Shown piece by piece: positions 1-16,124 of a DNA stretch of 17,215 nucleotides. The stretch covers positions 1 through 17,215 of the forward strand of contig ONPY01000053.1 of assembly GCA_900319835.1 (NCBI GenBank), given 5' to 3'. Each line of letters starts with the position of its first letter. Within the stretch, counting starts at the first letter, position 1. The notes beneath the pieces were generated by a model, which worked only from the letters and a program-made list of their open reading frames with translations, did no database searches and was not told the DNA's origin. The translations under genes were made by a program, and so were the position numbers. Source of the stretch: an uncultured Eubacteriales bacterium (GTDB taxonomy: Bacteria > Bacillota_A > Clostridia > Oscillospirales > Oscillospiraceae).

Positions 1-79
1 CATTATTGCCGACGGCTCCGATGAGGAAGAGGCCATTGCGACTCTGGCGGAACTGATCGATTCTGACTTCTCCGAGTAA
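1..79 (+). CDS. HPr-family phosphocarrier protein, C-terminal fragment
   Basis: Only the last 25 codons are in the window; the start lies upstream. Read from base 2 the frame gives IIADGSDEEEAIATLAELID followed by SDFSE and a TAA stop at 77-79. This matches the C-terminal strand and helix of HPr proteins, where an (A/S)xGxDExxA pattern is followed by a short amphipathic helix and an acidic end. HPr is the small cytoplasmic phosphocarrier of the PTS sugar system; in Gram-positive bacteria the related Crh has a regulatory role in carbon catabolite control. The phospho-accepting His15 and regulatory Ser46 are outside the window, so ptsH and crh cannot be told apart. In many Clostridia a gene of this kind follows whiA, but that is not visible here. 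The gene is followed at once by a terminator, so it ends its own transcription unit. Confidence 0.72.
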   Translation, partial: IIADGSDEEEAIATLAELIDSDFSE

Positions 80-93
80 TCCGACACTTTGGC

Positions 94-128
94 AGAGGCG
101 TGTGTTCAATGCACACGCCTCTTTTTCT
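94..128 (+). terminator. Rho-independent terminator after the HPr-like gene
   Basis: An 11-bp perfect stem, AGAGGCGTGTG (94-104) with CACACGCCTCT (112-122), encloses a 7-nt loop, and the 3' arm runs into TTTTTCT. It starts 15 nt after the HPr stop codon. It separates the HPr unit from the TIR gene and rules out the longer GTG/ATG reading of the TIR frame that would begin inside this stem. Confidence 0.92.
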
Positions 129-189: not shown

Positions 190-2649
190 ATGGAAGAACA
201 GAGACACTACAGCGCGTTTATTTCCTATCGGCATCTGAAAAACGATCAGGCGGTGGCCAAACAGGTGCAGAACCTGCTGGAGAGCTATCGCCCGCCGAAG
301 GGCATCACAGAGGGAAAACGCATCGGCCGCATCTTCCGCGACACCACAGAGCTGCCCGCCAGCCGGGATCTGGACGGGGCGCTGCAGGAGGCGCTGCTGC
401 ACTCAGACTATCTGATCCTGATCCTCTCCGAGACTACCAAGGATTCCAAGTGGTGCATGGAAGAACTGAACCGTTTCAAGCTGGCCCACGGCGGAAGCAT
501 CGACCGCATTCTGCCGGTTCTGGTCTCCGGGGAACCGGCGTCCGTGCTCCCGGACGAGCTGCGCTATGAGGAGCGCAGTGTCCCAGGCCCGAACGGGGAG
601 AGCACGCCGGTCCGGATCGATGTGGAGCCCGTCTGCGCCGACGTGCGCGCAGAGAGTGAGTCAAAACAGAAACGGCGGCTGCGCACAGAGTTTCTGCGCC
701 TTGCGGCACCCATGCTGGGGGTCGGCTACGACGATCTCTATCAGCGCCAGCGGAGGCGTCAGCGCCGCGTTCGGACCGCGCTGACAGGCGGCGCCTTTGC
801 GCTGCTGCTCCTGCTGCTCGGCGTCATCGGCACGGCTTATCTGAGGGTCTCCGCCGCAGAAAAGCAGATCTTCCACCAGATGGTCCTGGGCCATGTGGAG
901 GCCGGCCTGCGCAGCGCCGAGGCGGGCAAGACCCGAGAGGCACTGGCCTACTACGTCCAGGCACTCGTCGAGGATCCGGACAACGCCATGGCGCGCTCAG
1001 GCGCCCTCCTGCTCCTCCAGTCCCAGAGCTGGCTGTACGACAAGGGCGAGGCGGAGCCCGAAAAGCAAGAGACGGTCAAGCCGCCGGAACTTCTCACGGC
1101 GCTGATGGATCTGACAGCCTGGCCCGAAACGGGGGACGGTGCCTTCGTCTTTGCCGGGGCCGGCAACGTGTGCGTCTGGATGTCCGACACGGACAGCTGT
1201 TATGTCTGCCCCCGCACGGTGGACGGATACAACAACAAGAGCGTCCCGCGCGCGGCGCCCATCCTTCGGGAGGATCGCACCCTGATCGCCATACAGGATG
1301 ACCACGTGATCGCCGTGTTCGAGTGGGAGGGCGATACCTGCAAGCCGGGGCTCAAGCTCTGTACGCTGCGCAGCGTCACCGATGTGGACACCGGTCGCAT
1401 TGACGAGCAGGCCATCGACCCGGAGGACGAGGCCACCAGAATCGAACGGTCCTTTCTGGAGGAATATTACCGACCCGGACTCTTGCGGGACGAGGAGCTG
1501 GAGCTGGGGCCCTGTACGCCCCGCATCTATGCCGATCCTCAAAACGGCTGGGTGATCCCTGTGGCAAACACCATCTGGGCCCTGAACGCCGAATCCGGCA
1601 GGGTGGACTCCAAAAAGACCTTCAGCTCCTATGTGCTGGAGGCGGCCCAGTCGCCGGACTTTTCCGGCTACGCGGTGGTCACCGCCTCCCGCTGGAGCCG
1701 GGGCACTCGCGGGAATATCGTCACGGCCGTCAACGGTTACGGTTCCACAATGGGCGAGAGCGTGGAAGACTCCCGCTATGGCTTTCGCAGCCTCTGCTTT
1801 GACGGCAGCGGCCGCTATTTGCTGTGGGCGGACGCGGGGCTGCTCCAGCTCCTGAATGCCCCCACCCTCGGCCCTGCGGCGCCCGCGCTGCCCGTCAGCG
1901 GCATCCAAAGGGCGGACTTTACCCCGTCGGGAGAGATCCGCCTGGAGACCGCAGACGGCAGCCGCCTCTATGAGGCCGTCGGCTTTTCCTGTAAACCGGC
2001 GCGGGAATATGCCCAAGAGGACCTGGTTACGCTTTATAACCGACATAAGGACCAGGTGGCGGAGCACCTGGTGGAGGATCACAGCGTCCCGGCGAGCTAC
2101 CGCGATTTTGACAGTATCGAAAACGCCTGCGGCTTTGACGGGGGATTTGCGGTGCTGCTGCCCGGCGGCGTGGTGCTGGTCTACCTGGACGGGCAGGATG
2201 AGCCCGCCGCGGAGATCCAGCTCATGCACGGGGACTATGTGAACAACGGTCTTGCCGTCAGTCCTGCGGGCTGGCTCTGTGCAGTCTCCTTTTCGCAGAC
2301 GGTCTCCAACCTGGAGGAGGGAAAAACATCTTTCTGGGCTGTGGAGATCTGGAACTGGAAGGAGAACTGCTGCCTGGGCGACATCGGCAATCGCCGTCGC
2401 TACGGCGCGGACCAGCTGGCCACACCCTGCTTCCCGGAGCCGAACCTGCTCTGCTTCAACGAGAATGCGAGTGTCAAGACCCTTCTGCTCGACGGTGAGG
2501 CGCCGGACACCGAGACCGTGACCGCTCTGAGGGAGCTTGCGGGCATGGCCCTTGACGAAAACCAGAGTCTGCAGAATCAAACGCCGCACTTTGCGGGTAA
2601 ACTGGGAAACTGGGAAAACCTTCTCCGGCCGTATGATTCGCTGCCATAG
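190..2649 (+). CDS. TIR-domain membrane protein with TPR-like segment and beta-propeller-like C-terminal half
   Basis: A protein of 819 aa from the ATG at 190; the longer frame from 100 starts inside the terminator stem and was rejected. Residues 5-125 form a TIR domain: SAFISYRH at 8-15, then RIFRDTTELPASRDL (47-61) and the box SKWCMEEL. Here W88 is followed four residues on by E92, the position of the catalytic glutamate of NAD-cleaving TIR domains such as SARM1. A basic stretch (about 187-195, QRRRQRRVR) precedes one hydrophobic helix (about 197-217), so the TIR domain should be cytoplasmic and the rest outside. Residues 235-285 look like a TPR-type helical pair. About 300-775 is rich in Trp/Gly beta-strand repeats resembling a degenerate WD40-like propeller, and ALRELAGMALDENQSL (779-794) resembles the tail seen after WD repeats in bacterial proteins. 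It heads a tight run with EamA and uvrC. NADase, signalling or defence function is inference; substrate and ligand are unknown. Confidence 0.85.
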   Translation: MEEQRHYSAFISYRHLKNDQAVAKQVQNLLESYRPPKGITEGKRIGRIFRDTTELPASRDLDGALQEALLHSDYLILILSETTKDSKWCMEELNRFKLAHGGSIDRILPVLVSGEPASVLPDELRYEERSVPGPNGESTPVRIDVEPVCADVRAESESKQKRRLRTEFLRLAAPMLGVGYDDLYQRQRRRQRRVRTALTGGAFALLLLLLGVIGTAYLRVSAAEKQIFHQMVLGHVEAGLRSAEAGKTREALAYYVQALVEDPDNAMARSGALLLLQSQSWLYDKGEAEPEKQETVKPPELLTALMDLTAWPETGDGAFVFAGAGNVCVWMSDTDSCYVCPRTVDGYNNKSVPRAAPILREDRTLIAIQDDHVIAVFEWEGDTCKPGLKLCTLRSVTDVDTGRIDEQAIDPEDEATRIERSFLEEYYRPGLLRDEELELGPCTPRIYADPQNGWVIPVANTIWALNAESGRVDSKKTFSSYVLEAAQSPDFSGYAVVTASRWSRGTRGNIVTAVNGYGSTMGESVEDSRYGFRSLCFDGSGRYLLWADAGLLQLLNAPTLGPAAPALPVSGIQRADFTPSGEIRLETADGSRLYEAVGFSCKPAREYAQEDLVTLYNRHKDQVAEHLVEDHSVPASYRDFDSIENACGFDGGFAVLLPGGVVLVYLDGQDEPAAEIQLMHGDYVNNGLAVSPAGWLCAVSFSQTVSNLEEGKTSFWAVEIWNWKENCCLGDIGNRRRYGADQLATPCFPEPNLLCFNENASVKTLLLDGEAPDTETVTALRELAGMALDENQSLQNQTPHFAGKLGNWENLLRPYDSLP

Positions 2650-2669
2650 CACAAAAACAGGAGATCCCG

Positions 2670-3518
2670 ATGAACAAGGAAAGAATCGCAATCATTGAAA
2701 TGCTGACCTGCGCGGCTCTCTGGAGCATCGCGGGCATCTTCATCAAGCTGGTGCCCTGGAACGGCTTTGCCGTGGCTGGGATGCGCAGCCTGGTGGCCGG
2801 CATGACCATCTATCTCTGCATGCGCCTGATGGGCTTTTCTTACGTCCTCAACCGCAGGACCTTGACGGCGGGATTCTTCTCCGGCTGCACCTATCTCTGC
2901 TTCGTGGTGGCAAACAAGCTCACCACCGCGGCCAACGCCATCGTCATGCAGTTTACCTCCCCGGTTTTTATTGTCATTTACTCGATGCTGTTTTTCCACA
3001 AAAAGGTGAGAAGGCAGGATGTCGCCGTGGTGCTCTGCACCATGCTCGGCATCGCCCTGTTCTTCGTTGACCAGTTGGCTCCTGGCTATGTGCTGGGCAA
3101 TCTCGTGGGCATCGCCGCCGGCATGTTTATGGCGGGGATGTTCGTCACGGTGGGGGAGATCGAGCCGGAGGAGCGCTTTTCCGGCATCCTTAACGGCCAG
3201 ATCCTCACCTTTCTGGTGGGCCTGCCCTTCTTCCTCGTGACAAAGCCCGCGCTCACAGCCACGGCGCTGATCTCCATTTTGATCCTGGGCGTGTTTCAGC
3301 TGGGCATCTCCTATGTGCTGTATGTCCGCTCCACCAGATACTGTCCGCCTCTGGCCTGCAATCTGCTGGGCGCGCTTGAGCCGCTTCTCAATCCCGTCTG
3401 GGTTTTCCTCTTTGACGGGGAGCGGCCCGGCCTCTTCGCCCTGCTCGGCTCGGTGGTGGTCATCGTCTCCATCACCCTCTGGTGTATCTTCGGCCAGGCG
3501 AAAACACAGGAAGCATAA
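2670..3518 (+). CDS. EamA/DMT-family membrane transporter
   Basis: A 282-aa, very hydrophobic protein with about ten membrane helices in two halves, the length and layout of drug/metabolite transporter (EamA) proteins. The first half opens with a helix carrying WSIAGIFIKL (residues 18-27) and a second with GMRSLVAGM; the second half repeats the pattern, ending in LGSVVVIVSITLWCIF. These proteins sit in the cytoplasmic membrane and usually export or exchange small metabolites; the substrate cannot be read from sequence. The start is fixed by AGGAG at 2660-2664, 5 nt before the ATG. It begins 20 nt after the TIR gene with no terminator between, and uvrC follows 12 nt after its stop, so the three are probably co-transcribed. 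Whether the transporter serves the TIR protein or is just an operon neighbour is unknown. Confidence 0.9.
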   Translation: MNKERIAIIEMLTCAALWSIAGIFIKLVPWNGFAVAGMRSLVAGMTIYLCMRLMGFSYVLNRRTLTAGFFSGCTYLCFVVANKLTTAANAIVMQFTSPVFIVIYSMLFFHKKVRRQDVAVVLCTMLGIALFFVDQLAPGYVLGNLVGIAAGMFMAGMFVTVGEIEPEERFSGILNGQILTFLVGLPFFLVTKPALTATALISILILGVFQLGISYVLYVRSTRYCPPLACNLLGALEPLLNPVWVFLFDGERPGLFALLGSVVVIVSITLWCIFGQAKTQEA

Positions 3519-3530
3519 AAGGAAACCAAT

Positions 3531-5399
3531 ATGAGCAATCCGGTTCTGGATACCCTGCGGGACAAGGCCAACCGCCTGCCCCTCCTTCCCGGCGTGTACA
3601 TCATGCTTGACGAGCAGAGTGACGTCATCTACGTCGGCAAGGCCAAAAAACTGAAAAACCGGGTCAGCAGCTATTTCCACGGCGAGCACCTGCCCAAGGT
3701 GGCCGCCATGGTGGAGAAGGTGCGGGACTTCAATGTCATTGTCGCCGGTAGCGAGTTTGAGGCGCTGGTGCTGGAAAACTCCCTTATCAAGCAGCACAAG
3801 CCCCACTACAACATCCTGCTCAAGGACGACAAAGGCTACCCCTTCATCCGCCTGGACATGCGGGAGGAGTACCCCGCCATGACGCTGGTCAGCCGCGCGG
3901 GGAAGGACGGGGCCAAGTACCTCGGACCCTTCGGTGGACGCTACCAGACCAGGGAGATCATCAACACCGTCAGCCGCGCCCTGCTGCTGCCGGACTGCAG
4001 CCGGAAATTTCCCCGGGACATCGGCAAGGAGCGGCCCTGCTTGAATTACCACATGGGCGCCTGCGCGGGCTGGTGTCTCAAGGACAGCAACGCCGAGGAC
4101 TACCGCCGCCGCATGACCCAGGCCGCCTTGATCCTGGACGGCAAGAGCGCGGAGCTGATCGAGGAACTGAGAGAACAGATGGAGCAGGCGGCGCAGGAGC
4201 TGCGCTTTGAGCGGGCCGCGGAGCTGCGGGATCGGATGCGCGCGGTGGAGAGCCTTGCCAACAAGCAGCGGGTCATCGCCACCGCCTTTGCCGACACGGA
4301 CGCCGTGGGCTTCTGCCGGGGCGCCAAGAGCTGCTTTACCGTGCTGCATTTTGTGGACGGAAACCTCGTGGGCAAGGACGTGGAGATGATGGACGAGCCC
4401 CTGGAGGAGGACGGCGAGGCCATCTCCAATTTGGTGCGTCAGTACTACGGCGAGCATCGGGGCGGCTGGCCCAAGTCCATTCTGCTGCCGGCCGAGATCG
4501 AGGACGCGGCGGAGCTGGAGACCCTGCTGAGCCAGTACGCCGGACGGCGGATTTATATCGAGACCCCCAAGCGCGGCGAACGCATGCGCCTGATTGAGAG
4601 TGCGGCCCTCAATGCCCGGGAGGAGATCCAGCGCCGCACCACCGCGGCCCAGCGCCGCAGCAAGACGCTGGAGTGGCTGCAGAAGGCGCTGGAGCTGGAA
4701 GCCTTTCCCCGGCGCATCGAGGCCTTTGATATCTCCAACCTCGGTGCCACGGGCATCGTGGCCGCCATGACCGTCCACGTCGACGGCAAGCCCCTGAAAA
4801 AGGATTACCGGCGCTTTCGCATCCGGGACCTGGAGGGGCCGGACGACTACGCCAGCATGTATCAGGCGGTCACACGCCGCTTCTCCCACTACAAGGAGGG
4901 AGACGAGAAATTCAATGAGCTGCCGGACCTGCTGCTCATCGACGGCGGCGACACCCACGCCGCCACCGCCGAACAGGCGCTGCGGGATCTGGGACTGTGG
5001 GTGCCGGTCTTCGGCATGGTCAAGGACGACCGCCACCGCACCCGCGCCCTCATCGACTCCACGGGCCGCGAGATCGGCATTCAGGCCAACCAGGCGGTCT
5101 TCGCCCTCGTGGGGAACATCCAGGAGGAGACCCACCGCTTCGCCATCGAATACCAGCGCTCCCTGCGAAACGAGAGTCTGGCCTCGCGCCTCGACGAGAT
5201 CCCCGGCGTGGGAGAAAAGCGCAGGGCGGATCTCATCAAGGCTTTCAAATCCCTCAAGGCCATCCGGGAGGCGAGCCTGAGCCAGTTGGAGCTGGTGGTG
5301 CCCCGGAGCACAGCCAAGGCCATCTACGACACCTTCCATACGGAAAAGGAGGAAGCAGCATGCGCGTCATCACCGGCTCTGCCCGGGGCAGAAGACTGA
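3531..5399 (+). CDS. uvrC: UvrABC excinuclease subunit C
   Basis: A 622-aa protein of normal UvrC length. It makes both incisions around bulky DNA lesions after UvrA/UvrB recognition in nucleotide excision repair. The N-terminal GIY-YIG nuclease domain is clear (GVY at 21-23, YVG at 34-36). Four cysteines, C156, C170, C178 and C182, sit where the 4Fe-4S cluster reported for UvrC is bound. A UVR (UvrB-interacting) motif lies at about 208-242. The RNase H-like endonuclease domain has D400 (AFDISN), D471 (LLIDGGD) and H535 (THRFAI), matching the catalytic triad. A helix-hairpin-helix pair (DEIPGVGEKRRADLI, 555-569) closes the protein. AAAGGAAA precedes the ATG. The last 40 nt overlap the start of rsmD in another frame, so the final 13 residues, including CASSPALPGAED, look like a variable tail rather than a domain. 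Confidence 0.98.
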   Translation: MSNPVLDTLRDKANRLPLLPGVYIMLDEQSDVIYVGKAKKLKNRVSSYFHGEHLPKVAAMVEKVRDFNVIVAGSEFEALVLENSLIKQHKPHYNILLKDDKGYPFIRLDMREEYPAMTLVSRAGKDGAKYLGPFGGRYQTREIINTVSRALLLPDCSRKFPRDIGKERPCLNYHMGACAGWCLKDSNAEDYRRRMTQAALILDGKSAELIEELREQMEQAAQELRFERAAELRDRMRAVESLANKQRVIATAFADTDAVGFCRGAKSCFTVLHFVDGNLVGKDVEMMDEPLEEDGEAISNLVRQYYGEHRGGWPKSILLPAEIEDAAELETLLSQYAGRRIYIETPKRGERMRLIESAALNAREEIQRRTTAAQRRSKTLEWLQKALELEAFPRRIEAFDISNLGATGIVAAMTVHVDGKPLKKDYRRFRIRDLEGPDDYASMYQAVTRRFSHYKEGDEKFNELPDLLLIDGGDTHAATAEQALRDLGLWVPVFGMVKDDRHRTRALIDSTGREIGIQANQAVFALVGNIQEETHRFAIEYQRSLRNESLASRLDEIPGVGEKRRADLIKAFKSLKAIREASLSQLELVVPRSTAKAIYDTFHTEKEEAACASSPALPGAED

Positions 5400-7256: not shown

Positions 7257-7673
7257 ATGACGGGAGAATATCAGCATTCGCTGGACAGCAAGGGGAGATT
7301 GTTCATGCCGGCCAAGCTCCGGGATGAATTGGGCGACGTGTTTTATCTCACCATCTCCATGGATCGCTGCCTCTGCGCCTACAGCGGCGAGAGCTGGGCG
7401 GTCCTGTCCGAGCGCGTCAACGCCATGCCCTACGTCAAGCAGCGCAAGATGCGCCCGCTCTTTGCCCATGCCGCGAGATGCGAACTGGACAACCAGGGCC
7501 GGGCCCTGATCCCCCAGAACCTGCGGGAGTACGCGGGCTTTACTAAAAACGTGACCGTGGTCGGCTGCAACAACCACGCGGAACTCTGGGACAGCGAGGC
7601 CTGGAGCGCCGTGTTCCGGGAGGAGACCACGCCGGAGAACATCATGGCGGTTATGGAGGAACTGGAGTTTTGA
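7257..7673 (+). CDS. mraZ: Transcriptional regulator MraZ
   Basis: A 138-aa protein, close to the usual 140-150. MraZ is a DNA-binding, ring-forming regulator of the dcw cluster that represses its own promoter. The double SpoVT/AbrB-like fold is marked by two copies of the DxxGR signature: DSKGR (10-14) and DNQGR (78-82). The N-terminus MTGEYQHSLDSKGRLFMPAK is typical. AGGGGG at 7242-7247 lies 9 nt before the ATG. It is first in the operon, directly behind the three operator repeats. The stop TGA (7671-7673) overlaps the TTG start of rsmH, so the two are translationally coupled. Confidence 0.97.
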   Translation: MTGEYQHSLDSKGRLFMPAKLRDELGDVFYLTISMDRCLCAYSGESWAVLSERVNAMPYVKQRKMRPLFAHAARCELDNQGRALIPQNLREYAGFTKNVTVVGCNNHAELWDSEAWSAVFREETTPENIMAVMEELEF

Positions 7674-8623
7674 CGGAAAACGAGAGCACCCTGACGCCGA
7701 AACATGTTTCGGTTTTGCTGCAGGAATGCATCGACAATCTGAATATCAAGCCCGACGGGATCTACCTGGACGGTACGCTCGGAATGGGCGGACATTCTTT
7801 TGAGATCGCCTCCCGGCTCCGGAATGGCCGTCTCATCGGCATCGACAGAGATGAGACCGCCATTGAACGGGCCGGAAGGCGACTCGCGCCGTTTATGGAC
7901 AAGATCACTCTGGTACACGGTAACTTTTCCGACGCGGCTGCGATCCTGGATTCCCTGGGCATCGGCGGCGTGGATGGAATGCTGTTCGATCTGGGCGTGT
8001 CCTCGCCCCAGCTTGACGAGAGCGAGCGCGGCTTTTCCTACATGGCGGACGCGCCGCTGGACATGCGCATGGACGGCAGCGCCAGTCTCACCGCCTATGA
8101 TGTGGTGAACACCTGGGATGAGACCCGACTCAACCGCATCCTCTGGGACTACGGGGAGGAGCGCTACGCCCGGCGCATCTCCGCGGCCATTCTCCGCGCC
8201 AGAGAGCAAAAACCGATCGAGAGCACCCTGGAGCTGGTGGACATCATCAAATCCGCCATGCCGGCCCCGGCCCTGCGGGAAAAGCAGCACCCGGCCAAGC
8301 GCAGCTTTCAGGCCATCCGCATCGCGGTCAACGACGAGTTGGGCGCCATCTCGCAAATGATGGAGACCGCGCCGGACAAGCTGAACATCGGCGGCAGGCT
8401 CTGTGTCATCAGCTTCCATTCCCTGGAGGACCGCATTGTCAAAAGCGGTATCCAGGCCAGAGAGAACGGCTGCACGTGCCCCAGGGAGGCACCAATCTGC
8501 ACCTGCGGTTTTGTCCAGACCCTCCGCAGTGTCAGTCGTAAACCCATTCTGCCCTCTCCCCGGGAGCTCGCGGCCAATCCCCGCGCCCGCAGCGCCAAGC
8601 TCCGGGTGGCTGAGCGCGTGTGA
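7670..8623 (+). CDS. rsmH: 16S rRNA (cytosine(1402)-N(4))-methyltransferase RsmH (MraW)
   Basis: A 317-aa protein, the usual length. It methylates N4 of C1402 in the 16S rRNA decoding centre using S-adenosylmethionine. Family motifs are HVSVLLQECIDNL (12-24), the SAM-binding YLDGTLGMGGHS (33-44) and GIDRDETAI, followed by MLFDLGVSSPQLDESERGFS and RSFQAIRIAVNDEL. The start is a TTG at 7670 overlapping the mraZ stop (TTGA), supported by GGAGGA at 7655-7660; no ATG exists before the first conserved motif. It ends in a GTGA overlap with ftsL. The mraZ-rsmH-ftsL order is the standard dcw order. Confidence 0.97.
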   Translation: MTENESTLTPKHVSVLLQECIDNLNIKPDGIYLDGTLGMGGHSFEIASRLRNGRLIGIDRDETAIERAGRRLAPFMDKITLVHGNFSDAAAILDSLGIGGVDGMLFDLGVSSPQLDESERGFSYMADAPLDMRMDGSASLTAYDVVNTWDETRLNRILWDYGEERYARRISAAILRAREQKPIESTLELVDIIKSAMPAPALREKQHPAKRSFQAIRIAVNDELGAISQMMETAPDKLNIGGRLCVISFHSLEDRIVKSGIQARENGCTCPREAPICTCGFVQTLRSVSRKPILPSPRELAANPRARSAKLRVAERV

Positions 8624-8910
8624 GGGCGCGCATTCGAGTCAGAGAGAGACTGTTTCGCGCGGTCTGCCTGGGCTTTTCGGGCTTTCTGCTGGTACTGCTG
8701 CTCTTCTGGCAGATCCGGCTTGCACGGACCGAAGCCAGGATCGAGGATTTGCAGACCGCTATTCTCCGGGCCGAGGACGAGCGCACGAGGCTCACCCTCC
8801 TGGAGGAGGAAAGATTGAACCTGGAGGCGCTGGAGCAGACGGCTGTTTGGAGGCTGGGCCTGCGGCACCCCGCACAGGATCAGATTTTTGTATTGGACAA
8901 TCCGGGATAA
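8620..8910 (+). CDS. ftsL: FtsL/DivIC-type septum protein
   Basis: A 96-aa protein with a basic N-terminus, one membrane helix (about 12-31, LFRAVCLGFSGFLLVLLLFW) and a coiled coil (about 33-72). It closes with a short C-terminal motif, AVWRLGLRHPAQDQIFVLDN, of the form seen in FtsL and DivIC. These bitopic proteins form a complex with DivIB/FtsQ that activates septal FtsW and its PBP. Sequence conservation is low in the family, so the assignment rests on topology, size and position between rsmH and the PBP gene. The start is GTG at 8620, overlapping the rsmH stop as GTGA. The PBP gene follows within 10 nt of its stop. Confidence 0.88.
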   Translation: MRARIRVRERLFRAVCLGFSGFLLVLLLFWQIRLARTEARIEDLQTAILRAEDERTRLTLLEEERLNLEALEQTAVWRLGLRHPAQDQIFVLDNPG

Positions 8911-8919
8911 AGATACGCA

Positions 8920-11277
8920 ATGCCGAATAGGATGAGGCAGTATCATCAGGCGGTGCGTATCATGAACAGACAAGCAACAGAAGGCGGGGCACTCTCCCGC
9001 CGCAGCCGGCAGATGCTCAGGAGAGGTGCGGCGCTGGCCGCCATCTTTGGCATCGGGGTCTTTGCCCTGCTGCTGGCAAGACTCTATCAGCTGCAGATCG
9101 TGGACCATGAACAGTATGAGTCCATGGCCATCCGGCAGCAGCTCCGATCTACCCCCGGCGCGCTGGAGCGGGGGATCATCTATGACCGCAACGGCAATGT
9201 CCTGGCGGTCAGCGCCACGGTGGACAACGTCTACCTCAGCCCGGCAGAGATCGAGACCAACGGCGAGGATCGGGCTTTGATTGCCCGGGAGCTTGCCGGG
9301 ATCCTGGGGCTGGACGAAAAAGAGATTTACGAGAAATCCGGCCGGAAGGGGAGCTGGTATGTGACCCTGGCCCGGCAGGTGGAGCGGGAGCAGGCAAACG
9401 CCATCCGCCGCTTCAAGAGTGAAAACGGAATCCGAGGCGTGCGTTTGGAGAGCGACTCCAAGCGCTACTACCCCAACGGCCGCCTGGCCTGCCACCTCCT
9501 GGGTTTTGTGGGGGTGGACAACACGGGGCTGGAGGGGATTGAGGCCAAATATGACGCGGAGCTCTCCGGCACCCGGGGCAGCACCCGCCGGGCCACAAAC
9601 GCCTACGGGGGCGAGATGCTGCTGCGCCGCTATGAGGAGTACGACCCGGGCGAGGGAGGCGGCGACCTGACGCTCACCATCGACGCCACCATCCAATACT
9701 ACGTCGAAAAGCACCTGCGCGAGGCGGCGCGGGAGTACGACGTGCAGCACGGCGCGGGGGCCATTGCCATGGACCCCAACACCGGCGCCATCCTCGCCAT
9801 GGCGTCTCTGGCTGACTACGACCCCAATCACTTTCTTGATGTGGATGAGAAGGCCGCCGAGAACATCGCCCTGGCAGGCAGCAGCGAGGAGGCGGAGGCT
9901 CTGCGCGCTGCCGCCCAGGCACTGCAGTGGCGCAACAAGGCTCTGTCCGACACCTATGAGCCAGGCTCCACTTTCAAGATCATCACCCTCACAATGGCCC
10001 TGGAGGAGGGCAAGACGGGTTTGGGCGACTCCTTCTACTGCGGCGGCAACGTCAGCGTGTTGGGCAGATCCAATCCCATCCGCTGCTGGAAGACCCAGGG
10101 CCACGGCAGCCAGACGCTCACCCAGGCCGTGCAGCACTCCTGCAACGTGGCCTTTGTCAACATCGGCCAGCGGGTTGGGGCCGAGCGCTTTTACGATTAC
10201 TGCGAAGCCTTTGGTTTTTTAAACCAGTCCGCAGATCCGGACGCCAGTCTCACTGCCCGCACGGGTATCGATCTGGCAGGGGAGAGCGGCAGCATCTGGT
10301 GGAGCAGAAACACCTTCTGCTCAAAGAAAAACCTGTCCCAGCTGGCGGCGGCCTCCTTTGGCCAGACCTTCACCATCACACCGCTGCAGCTGGTGACGGC
10401 GGTCAGCGCCTGCGTCAACGGCGGCAGGCTGATGCGCCCCTATGTGGTGCGCCAGATCACGGACGGAGACGGCGGTGTCCTTCTGGATCGCAGCCCCGAA
10501 GTCGTCCGCCAGGTGATCAGCGAGGAAACCAGCCGCACGGTGCGCGCAATTCTGGAACAGGTGGTGGGCGACCCCAAGGAGGGTACCGGCCGCAACGCGG
10601 CCGTGGCCGGCTACCGCATCGGAGGAAAGACCGGAACCAGCGAAAAGGTGAGTCTGGAAGCGCAGACCGGCAAGAAGGAATACATCGTCTCCTTCATCGG
10701 CTTTGCCCCGGCGGACGATCCAAAGATCGTCCTGCTGGTATTTCTGGACACTCCGTCCGACGCCTCCGGCATCTACATCAGCGGCGGCCAGATGGCGGCC
10801 CCAGTGGTGGGCCGGATGATGGCGGATATCCTGCCGTATCTGGGCGTCGCGCCGGAACAGGACGCATCCGCTCAGGTCCGGATGCCCGAGACCGAGGGCC
10901 TGAGCCTGACGGACGCGGCGGGCGTCATCCGGGAGTCCGGACTGCGCTATCGTACCATCGGGTCGGGAGATACCGTTACGGATCAGCTTCCCAGACCCGG
11001 CTGCGAGATCGCGGAGGGGACGGAGGTGATCCTATACCTTGGGGCGGAGATCTCCCCTGAACAGGAGACGGTGCCGGAACTGACAGGCATGAGCCTGTCC
11101 GAGGCCCGGGACACCTTATCTTATTATGGCATCTATCTGACCACCAAGAGCCCCGACGCCGGAGAAGACAGCGTGGTCTCCGCCCAGAGTCTGCCGGCGG
11201 GCACGCTTGTGGAGCACGGAACAATATTGGAAGTGAGCCTGATTCATCAGGAGGAAAGTATGCTGGGCCGTTACTGA
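8920..11277 (+). CDS. Class B penicillin-binding protein with two PASTA domains (FtsI/PbpB/SpoVD type)
   Basis: A 785-aa D,D-transpeptidase that cross-links septal peptidoglycan outside the membrane. One membrane helix lies at about 37-56, followed by the PBP dimer domain (GIIYDRNGNVLA, 85-96). The transpeptidase active site is complete: SxxK at S350-K353 (STFK), SxN at S407-N409 (SCN) and KTG at K570-G572. Two PASTA domains end the protein (about 653-708 and 715-775). B. subtilis PbpB has two PASTA domains and SpoVD one, so the architecture is nearer PbpB, but only one such PBP gene is present here and it could serve division, sporulation or both. The start is uncertain: ATG 8920 has a weak ribosome binding site, while ATG 8962 has AGGCGG at 8948-8953, and would shorten the cytoplasmic tail by 14 residues. 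Confidence 0.93.
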   Translation: MPNRMRQYHQAVRIMNRQATEGGALSRRSRQMLRRGAALAAIFGIGVFALLLARLYQLQIVDHEQYESMAIRQQLRSTPGALERGIIYDRNGNVLAVSATVDNVYLSPAEIETNGEDRALIARELAGILGLDEKEIYEKSGRKGSWYVTLARQVEREQANAIRRFKSENGIRGVRLESDSKRYYPNGRLACHLLGFVGVDNTGLEGIEAKYDAELSGTRGSTRRATNAYGGEMLLRRYEEYDPGEGGGDLTLTIDATIQYYVEKHLREAAREYDVQHGAGAIAMDPNTGAILAMASLADYDPNHFLDVDEKAAENIALAGSSEEAEALRAAAQALQWRNKALSDTYEPGSTFKIITLTMALEEGKTGLGDSFYCGGNVSVLGRSNPIRCWKTQGHGSQTLTQAVQHSCNVAFVNIGQRVGAERFYDYCEAFGFLNQSADPDASLTARTGIDLAGESGSIWWSRNTFCSKKNLSQLAAASFGQTFTITPLQLVTAVSACVNGGRLMRPYVVRQITDGDGGVLLDRSPEVVRQVISEETSRTVRAILEQVVGDPKEGTGRNAAVAGYRIGGKTGTSEKVSLEAQTGKKEYIVSFIGFAPADDPKIVLLVFLDTPSDASGIYISGGQMAAPVVGRMMADILPYLGVAPEQDASAQVRMPETEGLSLTDAAGVIRESGLRYRTIGSGDTVTDQLPRPGCEIAEGTEVILYLGAEISPEQETVPELTGMSLSEARDTLSYYGIYLTTKSPDAGEDSVVSAQSLPAGTLVEHGTILEVSLIHQEESMLGRY

Positions 11278-11303
11278 GACCCAGAGAGGCAAAGGAGAAA
11301 ACC

Positions 11304-12761
11304 ATGAAGCTGTCCGAACTGCTGAAGAACATAGAGGTCATCGCCTGCACGGCGGATTTGGAGACCGAGATCACCGGCGTCAGCTATGACTCCCGCCAGA
11401 CACAGCCAGGGGACCTGTTCGTTGCCATCAAGGGCTTTGAGGCCGACGGCCACCGCTTTATCCCCAAGGCAATGGAAAAGGGGGCCGCGGCGGTGCTCTG
11501 CGAGGACGCGCCCACAGACGGCACGCCCTATGTGCAGGTGAAGGACTGCCGCTACGGCCTTGCCATCACGAGCCGGGACTTCTTTGGGGATCCGGCATCG
11601 AAGATGAAGATTGTGGGCTTTACCGGCACCAGCGGAAAGACCAGCTCCACGCATCTGTTAAAGCACGTGCTGGAGTGCCAGGCGGGCGCCAAGGTCGGCC
11701 TCATCGGCACCAACGGCAACATGATCGGCGCGGAGCTGCTCCACACCGAACACACCACCCCCGAGAGCTATGAGCTGCACAAGCTCTTTCGCGAGATGCT
11801 GGACGCCGGCTGCACCCATGTGGTGATGGAGGTCTCCTCCCACTCGCTGACGCTGGAGCGCGTGGCGGGCATCTGCTTTGACGTGGCGATTTTCACCAAC
11901 CTCTCCCAGGACCATCTGGATCTGCACGGCACCATGGAAGCCTACGCCGCGGCCAAGAAGAAGATCTTTTCCCAGTGCCGCGTGGGCTGTATCAACGCCG
12001 ACGACGCCCGGGCCGACTTTATGGCCGAGGGCGTGAGCTGCCCCATCCTGCGCTACTCCGCGGCGGACAACAACGTCGACTTGACGGCAAAGGACATCCG
12101 CCTCACCGCCTCAGGCGTGCGTTTTGCCGCCGTGAAGGGCGGGGAACTGGCGCTGACAAAGCTCGCCATCCCAGGCATGTTCTCCGTATACAACGCCCTG
12201 GGCGTCATGGCGGCGGGCCTCTCCCTGGGGCTGACGCTGGAGCAGTGTGCCGCGGGTCTCAGCTCCGCCTCCGGGGTCAAGGGCCGGATGGAATCGGTCC
12301 CAACCGACGGGGATTACAGCATCATCATCGACTACTCCCACAAGCCGGACGCCCTGGAAAAGGCGCTCAAGGCCCTGCGTCCCGTGACCCGCGGGCGGCT
12401 CGTCGCCCTCTTCGGCTGCGGCGGCGACCGGGACCGCGGCAAACGCCCCATTATGGGGGCCATCGCTGCCCAGAATGCGGATCTGGTGGTGGTCACCAGT
12501 GACAATCCCCGCACCGAAGACCCCATGGCCATCATCAATGAGATCCTGCCGGGACTCAAAAAAGGCCGGGCTGCCTCCAAGGTAATCTGCGACAGGCCGG
12601 AGGCGATCCGCTGGGCTATTGACAACGCGGCCCCCGGTGATGTAATATTGCTTGCCGGCAAAGGTCACGAGGACTACCAGGTGGTCGGACATGAGAAGCA
12701 CCACATGGATGAGCGCGAGATCGTCGCCGAGCATTTAAAAGAGAGAAAGTCCGGGCGTTAA
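11304..12761 (+). CDS. murE: UDP-N-acetylmuramoyl-L-alanyl-D-glutamate--2,6-diaminopimelate ligase
   Basis: A 485-aa Mur ligase of normal length that adds the third stem-peptide residue to UDP-MurNAc-L-Ala-D-Glu, using ATP, in the cytoplasm. The N-terminal VSYDSRQTQPGDLFVAIKG (26-44) binds the uridine nucleotide. The P-loop is GTSGKT (108-113). DNPR (400-403) is the signature of enzymes that use meso-diaminopimelate; lysine-adding MurE proteins carry a different motif here. The C-terminal AIDNAAPGDVILLAGKGHED is typical of MurE. AAGGAG lies upstream of the ATG. It stands 26 nt after the PBP gene and 28 nt before mraY. Its 3' end contains a promoter-like sequence (12619-12646). Confidence 0.97.
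   Translation: MKLSELLKNIEVIACTADLETEITGVSYDSRQTQPGDLFVAIKGFEADGHRFIPKAMEKGAAAVLCEDAPTDGTPYVQVKDCRYGLAITSRDFFGDPASKMKIVGFTGTSGKTSSTHLLKHVLECQAGAKVGLIGTNGNMIGAELLHTEHTTPESYELHKLFREMLDAGCTHVVMEVSSHSLTLERVAGICFDVAIFTNLSQDHLDLHGTMEAYAAAKKKIFSQCRVGCINADDARADFMAEGVSCPILRYSAADNNVDLTAKDIRLTASGVRFAAVKGGELALTKLAIPGMFSVYNALGVMAAGLSLGLTLEQCAAGLSSASGVKGRMESVPTDGDYSIIIDYSHKPDALEKALKALRPVTRGRLVALFGCGGDRDRGKRPIMGAIAAQNADLVVVTSDNPRTEDPMAIINEILPGLKKGRAASKVICDRPEAIRWAIDNAAPGDVILLAGKGHEDYQVVGHEKHHMDEREIVAEHLKERKSGR
12619..12646 (+). promoter_or_regulatory. Candidate internal promoter in the end of murE
   Basis: TTGACA (12619-12624, full match), a 16-nt spacer and TGTAAT (12641-12646, five of six) with TG at 12638-12639 forming an extended -10. 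It lies 143 nt before the mraY ATG and could give mraY-ftsW-murG extra transcription. The -35 falls in the codons of the conserved AIDNA motif, so part of the match may be protein-driven; the ATA and TTG codons after it are unusual for this region. Confidence 0.45.
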
Positions 12762-12767
12762 AACGCC
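12754..12767 (+). other. Short hairpin across the murE stop codon
   Basis: GGCGT (12754-12758) pairs with ACGCC (12763-12767) around a TTAA loop that contains the murE stop codon, and is followed by TTT. It is too short for a convincing terminator but could act as a weak attenuator or a stability element between murE and mraY. Confidence 0.25.
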
Positions 12768-12789
12768 TTTCGTAAATCGGGAGAACCTT

Positions 12790-13797
12790 ATGACGATAAA
12801 GCTGATCACTTCCTTCGTGCTGGCCTTTCTGATTTCCAGCGCGTTCGGAAAAGTTTATATCCCCTGGCTGATCAAACAAAAGGCCGGCCAGCAGATCAAA
12901 TCGCAGGTCATACAGCATGAGGGAAAGGCGGGCACGCCCACCATGGGCGGCGCGATGTTTATCCTGGCTGTGACCGTCGTCTGTCTCACCGTGGGCTTTG
13001 ACGGGATGCTCCATGGAAACTTTGAGCACATCTTTGTGCTGCTGTTTGCGCTGGTCTTCGGCGCGATCGGTTTCCTGGACGATTGGGAAAAACTGAAAAA
13101 GAAGGAGAACATGGGCCTGAGCTCCCGCAGCAAGTTCCTGCTGCAGCTGGCGGCGGCCCTGGTCTTCATTCTTATTATGCGGCAGCTGGGCTTTGTCAGA
13201 CCCCATCTGTATGTGCCGTTTTTCAACCGCACTGTCTTTATGCCCGAGTGGCTGTACTTCGTCTTTGCCGCCTTTGTCATCGTCGGCACGGTCAACGCCG
13301 TGAACATCACGGATGGCGTCGACGGCCTTGCCACCGGCACCTCTCTCCCGGTGTTTTTGTTCTTTGTTGTGATCTCCCTGCGCTGGGGCCAGCGCTTCCA
13401 GGAGCTGGGCATTTTCGCCTCCGGCATGGTAGGCGGTCTGCTGGGCTTTCTTATGTATAACTTCAACCCGGCCAAGTGCTTCATGGGCGACACCGGCTCG
13501 TTGTTTCTCGGCGGCGCCGTGGCGGCCCTGGCCTTTGCCTATGACATGCCCCTGATCCTCATCACCCTGGGCTTTATCTTCATCATCGAAACGCTTTCCG
13601 ACATTATCCAGGTCAGCTACTTCAAGCTCACCCACGGTAAGCGTGTGTTCAAAATGGCGCCCTTCCATCACCATCTGGAGATGGGCGGCTGGACGGGCAA
13701 GAAGTGGAAGGAAAAAGAGCTCTTCGCCCTTTTTACCGGAATATCGCTGGTCATGGCGATCATATCCTTTATTGGGGTGTATCTGCGTTACGCCTGA
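12790..13797 (+). CDS. mraY: Phospho-N-acetylmuramoyl-pentapeptide-transferase
   Basis: A 335-aa integral membrane enzyme with about ten helices. It transfers phospho-MurNAc-pentapeptide from UDP to undecaprenyl phosphate, forming lipid I on the inner face of the membrane. Catalytic motifs are all present: the aspartate pair D97-D98 (FLDDWEK), NITDGVDGLATG (172-183), FMGDTGSLFLGG (231-242, D234) and the histidine motif PFHHHLEMGGW (291-301). GGGAG at 12779-12783 precedes the ATG. ftsW follows after 33 nt; in most dcw clusters murD lies between them, and it is missing here. Confidence 0.98.
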   Translation: MTIKLITSFVLAFLISSAFGKVYIPWLIKQKAGQQIKSQVIQHEGKAGTPTMGGAMFILAVTVVCLTVGFDGMLHGNFEHIFVLLFALVFGAIGFLDDWEKLKKKENMGLSSRSKFLLQLAAALVFILIMRQLGFVRPHLYVPFFNRTVFMPEWLYFVFAAFVIVGTVNAVNITDGVDGLATGTSLPVFLFFVVISLRWGQRFQELGIFASGMVGGLLGFLMYNFNPAKCFMGDTGSLFLGGAVAALAFAYDMPLILITLGFIFIIETLSDIIQVSYFKLTHGKRVFKMAPFHHHLEMGGWTGKKWKEKELFALFTGISLVMAIISFIGVYLRYA

Positions 13798-13830
13798 ATA
13801 AAGGCCCAGTCAGGCCGGGGAGGTGGGAGC

Positions 13831-15006
13831 ATGCGTTACGACAGCGCCCGTCTCGCCGGCCTTTCCGATGTGTCCGGAAGGCGGAGACCGGCCTTTGACG
13901 GCCCGTTCTTTCTGCTGACATTGCTGCTGCTTTGCGCCGGAGTGATCATGGTACTCTCCGCCAGCTACCCGAGGGCCTGGTACGACCCGGGCCATGTCAC
14001 CGGCGGCAACGCCGCCTATTACTTCATCCGGCAGCTGGTCTTTGCCCTGCTTGGCCTTGCGGTCATGTGGCTGGCTTCCCGCTTCCCCATGGAGGTCTAC
14101 CGGCGCTGGGCCTTTCCCTTCCTGGGCTTTACGCTGCTGCTTTTGATGCTGGTGCCGGTGATCGGCGTCAAGGCCAACGGCTCGAGACGCTGGCTCGGCG
14201 TGGGGGGACTGACACTGCAGCCCTCGGAGCTTGCAAAGCTCGCGGTGATTTTGTCCTTTGCCGCCCTCATTTGCCGGACAGGGGAGCATATGCGCAGCTT
14301 CAGGCGCGGCATCCTGCCCTTCGCGTGCATCCTCGGGGCCATCGTGGGGCTGCTGGTGCTGGAGCCGCACTTTTCCGCCTCCATTATCATCCTCGCCATC
14401 GGAGCCGTGATGCTCTTTCTCGGTGGGGTGCGGCTCGGCTGGTTTGTCGGGGCCTTTGGCGCCGCCGGGGCGGGACTGGCCCTGCTGCTGACCTTGTTTC
14501 CCTATGCCTCCTCCCGCATCAACACCTGGCGCGACCCCTTCTCCGACACGAGCGACCGGGGCTATCAGATTGTACAGAGCCTGTACACCGTTGGTTCCGG
14601 CGGGCTGAGCGGTCTGGGGCTCGGCGGCAGCAGACAGAAGTTTTTATACCTGCCGGAGGAGCACAACGACTTTATCTTCTCCGTGGTGTGCGAGGAGCTG
14701 GGCTTCATCGGCGCCGCGCTGATTTTGTGTCTCTTCGCCCTGCTGATTCTGCGGGGCTTCTGGATCGCCTTCCACTGCCGGGACCGCTTCAGCTTCCTGG
14801 TGGTCTGCGGCATCACCTCGCTGCTGGCCCTTCAGGTGTTTTTGAATGTGGCGGTGGTGACAAATCTCTTGCCCTGCACGGGCATCTCCCTGCCAATGTT
14901 CAGCTACGGCGGCACGGCCTTGCTGATCCAATTGGGGGAGCTGGGGATCGTCCTCAGCGCGTCACGGGATCTTCCCGTTCATGAGAGAAAGGAAAACCAA
15001 CCATGA
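13831..15006 (+). CDS. ftsW: SEDS peptidoglycan polymerase FtsW
   Basis: A 391-aa polytopic membrane protein of the SEDS family, which polymerises lipid II into glycan strands together with a class B PBP. Visible family motifs are NGSRRWLGVGGLTLQPSELA (116-135), GYQIVQSLYTVGSGGLSGLG (244-263), and YLPEEHNDFIFSVVCEELGF (273-292). In the last of these D280 matches the essential aspartate of FtsW/RodA. LPFTGISLPFxSYGG-type motif appears as LPCTGISLPMFSYGG. RodA and SpoVE are related; the dcw position next to murG favours FtsW. GGGGAGG at 13816-13822 supports the ATG at 13831. The stop overlaps murG as ATGA, so the polymerase and the enzyme that makes its substrate are translationally coupled. 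Confidence 0.95.
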   Translation: MRYDSARLAGLSDVSGRRRPAFDGPFFLLTLLLLCAGVIMVLSASYPRAWYDPGHVTGGNAAYYFIRQLVFALLGLAVMWLASRFPMEVYRRWAFPFLGFTLLLLMLVPVIGVKANGSRRWLGVGGLTLQPSELAKLAVILSFAALICRTGEHMRSFRRGILPFACILGAIVGLLVLEPHFSASIIILAIGAVMLFLGGVRLGWFVGAFGAAGAGLALLLTLFPYASSRINTWRDPFSDTSDRGYQIVQSLYTVGSGGLSGLGLGGSRQKFLYLPEEHNDFIFSVVCEELGFIGAALILCLFALLILRGFWIAFHCRDRFSFLVVCGITSLLALQVFLNVAVVTNLLPCTGISLPMFSYGGTALLIQLGELGIVLSASRDLPVHERKENQP

Positions 15007-16124
15007 AATTCCTCTTTACCTGCGGCGGCACCGCCGGCCACATCAACCCCGCCCTTGCGGTGGCGGGACGCCTCAAGGAGCTGATGCCCGACAGTGAGTT
15101 TCTCTTCCTTGGCGTTGAAGGCAAGATGGAGATGAACCTGGTGCCCCGGGCGGGCTATGAGATCCGGGGCTTGAACATGACCTACATCAAGCGCGGCCAT
15201 GATCTGGAATCCATCGCCCACAATCTGGACACCGTGAAAAACGTTGTCCGCTCCAAGCGGGAAGCCAAACAGATCATCCGCAGGTTTCAGCCGGACGCGG
15301 TGATCGGCACCGGCGGCTATATCTGTTACCCCGTGCTGGAGGCCGCCCACGAAGAGCATGTCCCCACCCTGGTACATGAGAGCAACGCCGTACCGGGACT
15401 TACCACAAAGCTGCTGGCCGACCGGGTGGACCAGGTGCTGCTGGGCTTTGAGGAGAGCCGCCAGTACTATCGCCATCCCGAACGTGTCACCGTCACCGGT
15501 ACGCCCGTGCGCGGGGAGTTTGACCGCATTACCCGCGAGAGCGCCAGACAGGAGCTGGGGCTGAGGGAGGGAGAGAAGCTGGTGATCTCCGTCTGGGGTT
15601 CCCTGGGCGCCGAGCACATGAACCGGGTCATGGCCGAATTGATCCCGAAGCTGGACGGGAAACAGAGCTTCCGTCTGATCCACGCGTCCGGCAGCCTCTA
15701 TCACGAGCGCTTTGTCAAAAAGCTCGCCGAAACCGCGCCCGACTGCGCCGAGAAGGGCATCGAGGTGCGCGAATACATCTACGATATGCCGCGGCTGATG
15801 GCGGCGGCGGATCTGATCCTCTGTCGGGCGGGCGCGTCCACGATCTCCGAGCTCTGTTATCTGGGAAAGCCCGCGATCATGGTGCCGTCGCCCAACGTGA
15901 CCAACAACCATCAGGAGAAAAACGCCCGGGTGCTGGAGCGGGCCGGCGGCGCGAAAGTGCTGCTGGAGGGCAAGTTTGACGCGGACTCCCTGCTCCGGGA
16001 CATTCAGGAGCTGCTTTCAGACGAGGAAAAACTGCAGAGCATGGGTGACGCCTTGCGGACGCTCTCCGTGCGGGACGCCACCGAGCGCATCACCGGGATG
16101 ATCCTGGAGCTCTGCAAAGGCTGA
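15003..16124 (+). CDS. murG: UDP-N-acetylglucosamine--undecaprenyl-PP-MurNAc-pentapeptide GlcNAc transferase
   Basis: A 373-aa GT-B glycosyltransferase of normal length. It adds GlcNAc to lipid I to make lipid II on the cytoplasmic face of the membrane. The N-terminal glycine-rich loop GGTAGHINPA (8-17) is the acceptor-side signature; the common form has GG where this has AG. HESNAVPG (125-132) and the UDP-GlcNAc-binding region AAADLILCRAGASTISEL followed by GKPAIMVPSPNVTNNHQ are present. GAAAGGAAAA lies in the end of ftsW ahead of the overlapping ATG at 15003. It is the last gene before the hairpin at 16144-16192. Confidence 0.98.
   Translation: MKFLFTCGGTAGHINPALAVAGRLKELMPDSEFLFLGVEGKMEMNLVPRAGYEIRGLNMTYIKRGHDLESIAHNLDTVKNVVRSKREAKQIIRRFQPDAVIGTGGYICYPVLEAAHEEHVPTLVHESNAVPGLTTKLLADRVDQVLLGFEESRQYYRHPERVTVTGTPVRGEFDRITRESARQELGLREGEKLVISVWGSLGAEHMNRVMAELIPKLDGKQSFRLIHASGSLYHERFVKKLAETAPDCAEKGIEVREYIYDMPRLMAAADLILCRAGASTISELCYLGKPAIMVPSPNVTNNHQEKNARVLERAGGAKVLLEGKFDADSLLRDIQELLSDEEKLQSMGDALRTLSVRDATERITGMILELCKG

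Follow-up and report, generated by a model that had tools for sequence, protein, structure and literature searches.

A membrane-anchored TIR protein with a WD40-like propeller in a gut-type Clostridia bacterium, a candidate outside-in receptor

The gene and its locus

We analyzed a stretch of 17,215 nucleotides (contig ONPY01000053.1; hereafter the window, meaning the whole stretch) from an uncultured Eubacteriales bacterium of gut type. One of its genes encodes an 819-aa protein that carries, in this order, a TIR domain with a catalytic-type glutamate, one transmembrane (TM) helix, a TPR-like part and a WD40-like propeller. This gene occupies an inserted position between an HPr gene and the genes of an EamA transporter and uvrC (Table 1). 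An earlier reading of the DNA made without database searches (the sequence-only reading) had proposed the same layout, down to W88/E92 and the basic stretch before the helix, and profile searches, hydropathy, AlphaFold2 models and fold searches agree with it. Our preferred interpretation, held tentatively and at somewhat less than even odds, is that the protein could be a single-pass TIR receptor that responds to an outside cue with cleavage of NAD.

Sequence comparison indicates that the open reading frame (ORF) is a real, selected protein, since two homologues are 96% and 87% identical to it, an orthologue from a Ruminococcaceae metagenome-assembled genome is 58-59% identical over the full length, and dN/dS is ~0.24 (at a dS of 1.4, near saturation). 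The gene starts with an ATG preceded by a purine-rich stretch. Alternative upstream in-frame starts fall in or near the terminator-like hairpin, a strong one, so that the start of the sequence-only reading, position 190, is the likeliest.

The window continues after uvrC with rsmD and coaD, one protein without a clear family and a cluster for cell division and wall synthesis. The copy of the HPr gene in L094 matches PTS-HPr (PF00381, E-value [E] 5.7e-33). Terminator-like sites of any strength number 5 in the region versus 3.0 expected by shuffling; the hairpin after HPr is also readable in the HPr-EamA gaps of relatives. No RNA element was found in the window at Rfam gathering thresholds. Opposite uvrC lies a 920-aa antisense ORF (2577-5339, minus strand), with a counterpart in L001; the ORF is most probably spurious, a product of the composition of GC-rich coding DNA.

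Table 1. Features of the window and ryanodine receptor (RyR)-domain channels beside relatives (window positions unless a locus is named)
Feature	Position	Strand	Basis or remark
HPr gene, 3' end; outside the TIR system	1..79	+	C-terminal end same as in relatives' HPr genes
Intrinsic-terminator-like hairpin between HPr and TIR gene	94..122	+	12 pairs, then T-run
TIR-TM-propeller protein, 819 aa	190..2649	+	ORF, homologues, Pfam TIR_2, structure models
TIR domain, ~residues 1-125, with W88, C89, E92	190..564	+	
Codons of W88-C-M-E-E92, catalytic-type motif	451..465	+	Conservation in aligned sequences
Basic juxtamembrane stretch, residues 181-195	730..774	+	
Single membrane helix, residues 196-214	775..831	+	Hydropathy; within continuous model helix 180-244
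TPR-like helical part, residues 215-280	832..1029	+	TPR_2 match 235-265 below cut-off; helices 248-261 and 266-278 in model
Propeller with C-terminal tail, residues 281-819	1030..2646	+	
EamA transporter, neighbor without shown functional link	2670..3518	+	PF00892, E 2.4e-23; tied to uvrC without TIR in relatives
uvrC, neighbor without shown functional link	3531..5399	+	TIGR00194, 533.8 bits vs 285.45
Cell-division/wall cluster: mraZ, rsmH, SpoVD/PBP2-type penicillin-binding protein (PBP), murE, mraY, ftsW, murG	7257-16124		Family searches
K+ channel, TVGYGD-type filter, C-terminal RyR domain	L059:12441-14033	-	Directly before TIR-TM
K+ channel, TVGYGD-type filter, C-terminal RyR domain	L068:9920-11467	-	Directly before TIR-TM
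K+ channel, TVGYGD-type filter, C-terminal RyR domain	L151:1477-3006	+	Directly before TIR-TM
K+ channel, TVGYGD-type filter, C-terminal RyR domain	L152:1504-2997	+	Directly before TIR-TM
K+ channel, TVGYGD-type filter, C-terminal RyR domain	L153		Directly before TIR-TM

Topology and domains of the protein

The full-length AlphaFold2 model (22 sequences, mean pLDDT 80.8, pTM 0.63) has a continuous helix that spans the hydrophobic residues, followed by two short TPR-like helices and then mainly strands; it contains no second membrane helix. Among the best 120 of 211 homologues, a hydrophobic stretch is found in 118 (range searched, residue 151 to ~300), and lysine and arginine are in excess before the helix relative to after it in 117 of these 118. 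Given this excess and a single membrane helix, the positive-inside rule predicts the N-terminal TIR domain in the cytoplasm and the propeller outside. The membrane region of one homologue, P0006, is wholly unlike that of its near-identical sister P0004 and has two hydrophobic stretches, perhaps through rearrangement or assembly error. Alignment A1 excludes P0006, whose membrane region looks rearranged, and includes the truncated P0003.

The cysteine content counts mildly against export. Cysteine makes up 2.3% of the outer part. Of 21 proteins in the fetched loci that look exported (pooled cysteine 0.9%; a set chosen by a crude signal-peptide rule that includes some doubtful frames), 20 have less, and so does the PBP of the window. 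This would suit a tethered sensor facing inward, whose propeller would fold in the cytoplasm and detect phage proteins or stress there, as soluble TIR defense proteins do. Bacterial TIR-type defense proteins that sense inside the cell are known, e.g., the portal-activated TIR-like NADase of PMC13174449. We consider this alternative unlikely, because the single helix and the charge bias predict a C-terminal half outside and the model shows no further membrane helix. The outside-in layout of the sequence-only reading therefore stands for the TIR side, predicted to be cytoplasmic, and is left in doubt for the export of the sensor. A cytoplasmic C-terminal half, which that reading had named as speaking against it, is disfavored by the charge bias and still allowed by the cysteines.

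AlphaFold2 and fold searches find a WD40-like propeller fold in residues 281-819, with the best coverage at 280-600. When the whole model is searched, the matches are mostly WD40 propellers with whole-model TM-scores of ~0.1-0.2 and a large root-mean-square deviation, and the propeller call therefore rests on the per-domain alignments. Pfam repeat signatures of the WD40/PQQ type are absent from the 819-aa protein up to E 0.1 and present in relatives. Used as a query, residues 285-819 retrieved six proteins, all already among the homologues of the whole protein.

The N-terminal part matches TIR_2 (PF13676; 41.2 bits vs a cut-off of 28), and the protein also scores above the cut-off of the Pfam profile ThsB_TIR. 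In alignment A2 (26 sequences, window included; loci without a clear TIR start left out), W88 and E92 are invariant (26/26) and C89 is kept in 16. E92 occupies the Glu position of the S-x-W-C-x-x-E motif of TIR NADases, and a strict motif of this type is present in 115 of 120 homologues. A search of solved structures by sequence gave marginal TIR matches only (best TIR E 0.12), and predicted models were therefore used. The model of the TIR domain resembles the TIRs of SARM1, RUN1 and SPARTA, with SPARTA TIRs as top matches; adaptor TIRs were matched as well. The profile match and the model support the TIR fold that had been read from the letters, with the glutamate in place. The loss of an NAD pocket, which would have spoken against that reading, is not seen in the TIR model, built without NAD.

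These data bear on the possibility that the TIR domain is a signaling scaffold, assembling partners with no relevant NADase activity. This appears rather improbable to us, since a pure scaffold would not need the invariant W88 and E92 or the strict motif, and family search detected no TIR adaptor gene in the window. Still, activity of the protein is not to be assumed, because 28 of 152 bacterial TIRs were active in one screen (PMC9092222).

We also considered membership in a known defense system, and rejected it on PADLOC and NCBIfam scans of the protein, which gave weak partial matches only, all in the TIR part; the best was PADLOC SAVED_TIR (E 3.6e-5), and PADLOC ThsB1|ThsB gave E 0.0028. 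NCBIfam ThcB4 scored 18 bits against a cut-off of 220, i.e., no equivalog-level match to a Thoeris TIR.

Genomic neighborhoods and RyR-domain channels

The 102 genomes surveyed for the genus of G001 include 62 with an EamA match; 30 EamA-uvrC loci from these were fetched and examined. In 27 of the 30, HPr lies 62-646 nt upstream of EamA and no TIR match lies between; EamA and uvrC therefore belong together without the TIR gene and look like bystanders to it. One locus (L113) is cut by a contig end and allows no TIR call, and the longest gap (L104) may contain another small gene. Together with the window, only G001 and G243 have a TIR gene at this site. In a tree of EamA and UvrC, these three and the TIR-free L096 form one clade (support 0.917), which fits one gain and one loss of the TIR gene. 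Membership in a functional EamA/uvrC/coaD operon, e.g., for control of NAD or CoA metabolites, would agree with the 20 nt between the TIR gene and EamA and with the shared position in the window, G001 and G243, but it is very improbable, given the 27 loci without TIR and the homologues that adjoin other genes elsewhere, and we reject the functional link to EamA and uvrC as well as the repair/CoA operon of the sequence-only reading. Its statement that no known defense partner is nearby holds for those window genes that family searches could name: APAZ and Argonaute have no match in the window proteins scanned, and no Thoeris effector lies downstream (EamA, uvrC, rsmD, coaD); upstream, the window holds the HPr 3' end only.

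The genus survey found TIR-TM relatives in 31 of 102 genomes and a family sample in 14 of 200, both figures including remoter relatives; a phylum sample gave 5 of 398, a possible undercount because no more than two candidates were scored in each genome. Of 33 stretches, 25 were used, those in which a TIR pattern recognized the gene; their neighbors, judged by eye with no family searches, were varied: transporters, regulators, metabolic and translation genes. Random neighborhoods without a conserved architecture had been named as evidence against the proposed receptor; the neighborhoods do vary, but the architecture is conserved.

A subset of homologues is an exception and adjoins a K+ channel with a RyR domain. 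In L059 (G093) and L068 (G220), a channel protein of 515-530 aa directly precedes TIR-TM proteins of 1,115-1,146 aa, and the order is identical in L151 (G200), L152 (G140) and L153/L157 (G167), where the TIR gene extends beyond the fetched stretch. In a second module, the channel and a ~620-aa membrane protein are accompanied by a secreted-looking protein of ~800 aa and by two shorter TIR-TM proteins of ~280 and ~690 aa. Six stretches (L086, L087, L088, L089, L091, L092) contain the channel and both TIR-TM proteins, and in L089 the ~620-aa protein was not seen; L161 has the channel and one TIR. The L092 channel has a KcsA-like pore with TVGYGD (best PDB match E 5.7e-13), and its C-terminal part matches ryanodine receptor 1 by sequence (E 2.2e-10). 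All 28 channel proteins scanned have an ion-channel domain and 27 have a RyR domain (E <= 0.001). The ~620-aa protein often adjoins the channel; among four copies scanned, those of L066 and L092 gave sub-threshold matches to TrkA_N or NAD_binding_7 and those of L059 and L068 none. PADLOC at E 0.01 had no match for the channel, the ~620-aa protein or the ~800-aa protein.

The TIR motif is not always kept beside the channels. In L151 and L152, the W is replaced by Y or F and the C by L, while a Glu is in place by eye; in L092, the ~690-aa TIR retains the W and E of the motif and the ~280-aa TIR seems to lack the Glu. In G001, the ~620-aa protein and channel adjoin a divergently oriented 479-aa protein with TIR_2 and leucine-rich repeats (LRRs) (L169:12312-13751, plus strand).

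A TIR-TM gene lies in the stretch seen in 12 of 34 channel-bearing genomes (27 from the genus survey and 7 more); several of the channel stretches stop early where their contig ends, and partial matches in G239, G294 and G298 were left out. Across the 102 genomes, TIR-TM genes occur in 31, the channel in 27 and both in 21 (Fisher p 1.9e-9, not corrected for relatedness). The window copy has no adjoining channel, with EamA downstream and HPr upstream. The genomes of both its orthologues (G001; G243, whose copy runs off its contig) encode a channel elsewhere.

A 2026 preprint (PMC13232231) reports phage proteins with RyR domains, which cleave cyclic ADP-ribose signals or sequester them and are similar to the Repeat12 domain of RyR. 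It is therefore a reasonable guess that a TIR product may act on the RyR-domain channel in some relatives. One could go further and see in the family a receptor-to-channel pathway, where an outside cue would yield a messenger of the cyclic ADP-ribose type that opens the KcsA-like channel through its RyR domain. The window protein would then be a stand-alone receptor for a channel encoded elsewhere in its genome, because both orthologue genomes encode one. We regard this as possible, though on the whole doubtful.

A candidate receptor among known TIR systems

We return to the preferred interpretation, the outside-in receptor with an NAD-cleaving output. As to topology, ligand, assembly, enzyme activity and outcome, we infer the following. 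The propeller, on its short TPR-like stalk outside the membrane, would bind something there, candidate cues being envelope damage, phage adsorption or a neighbor's product. Binding could gather the long helices of several subunits, allowing the cytoplasmic TIR domains to assemble. The assembled TIRs would cleave NAD+ via E92 into nicotinamide and ADP-ribose or a cyclic ADP-ribose isomer, and the cell might be arrested by lowered NAD+ or by a nucleotide signal. What survives of the receptor as first proposed is the membrane-anchored TIR, the propeller and the predicted cytoplasmic TIR side; what does not is the operon link.

Several known systems resemble the protein in part. Bacterial TIR_2 NADases, including Thoeris ThsB, share the TIR fold and the catalytic-type Glu, whereas the window protein adds a membrane helix and a propeller and has no Thoeris effector among the named window genes. 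SPARTA TIR-APAZ proteins provide the closest TIR structures and differ by their APAZ and Argonaute components. Membrane Ser/Thr kinases with C-terminal propellers have the same plan of N-terminal signaling domain, helix and propeller, with a kinase where the TIR domain stands here. The well-studied bacterial TIR proteins are known to respond to cues inside the cell. The predicted single-pass plan, with sensor outside and TIR inside, is that of animal Toll-like and IL-1 receptors, although here the TIR domain is N-terminal and the sensor is a propeller instead of LRR or Ig domains, and homology is shown for the TIR fold only. Bacterial TIR proteins that combine a nucleotide-binding domain (NBD) with repeats of the WD40 or TPR type (PMC9153377) likewise have an N-terminal TIR and a C-terminal repeat or propeller part, with the NBD where the window protein has its membrane helix.

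A search by title and abstract start, with most subscription papers outside its reach, found no description of the TIR-TM-propeller architecture or of the TIR-RyR-channel neighborhood. A 2015 paper on nucleotide-centered conflict systems reportedly treats TIR and RyR domains, and may already mention such operons. We take the arrangement to be a new form of TIR protein, with the putative function proposed above. With its TIR domain inside and its large, variable propeller on the probable outer side, this Clostridia family would give bacteria a layout comparable to that of Toll-type receptors. No channel gene adjoins the TIR gene in the window itself; the relatives that adjoin a RyR-domain K+ channel, where a signaling link may exist, raise the question of whether bacteria, too, pair cyclic ADP-ribose with ryanodine receptor domains, as animals do.
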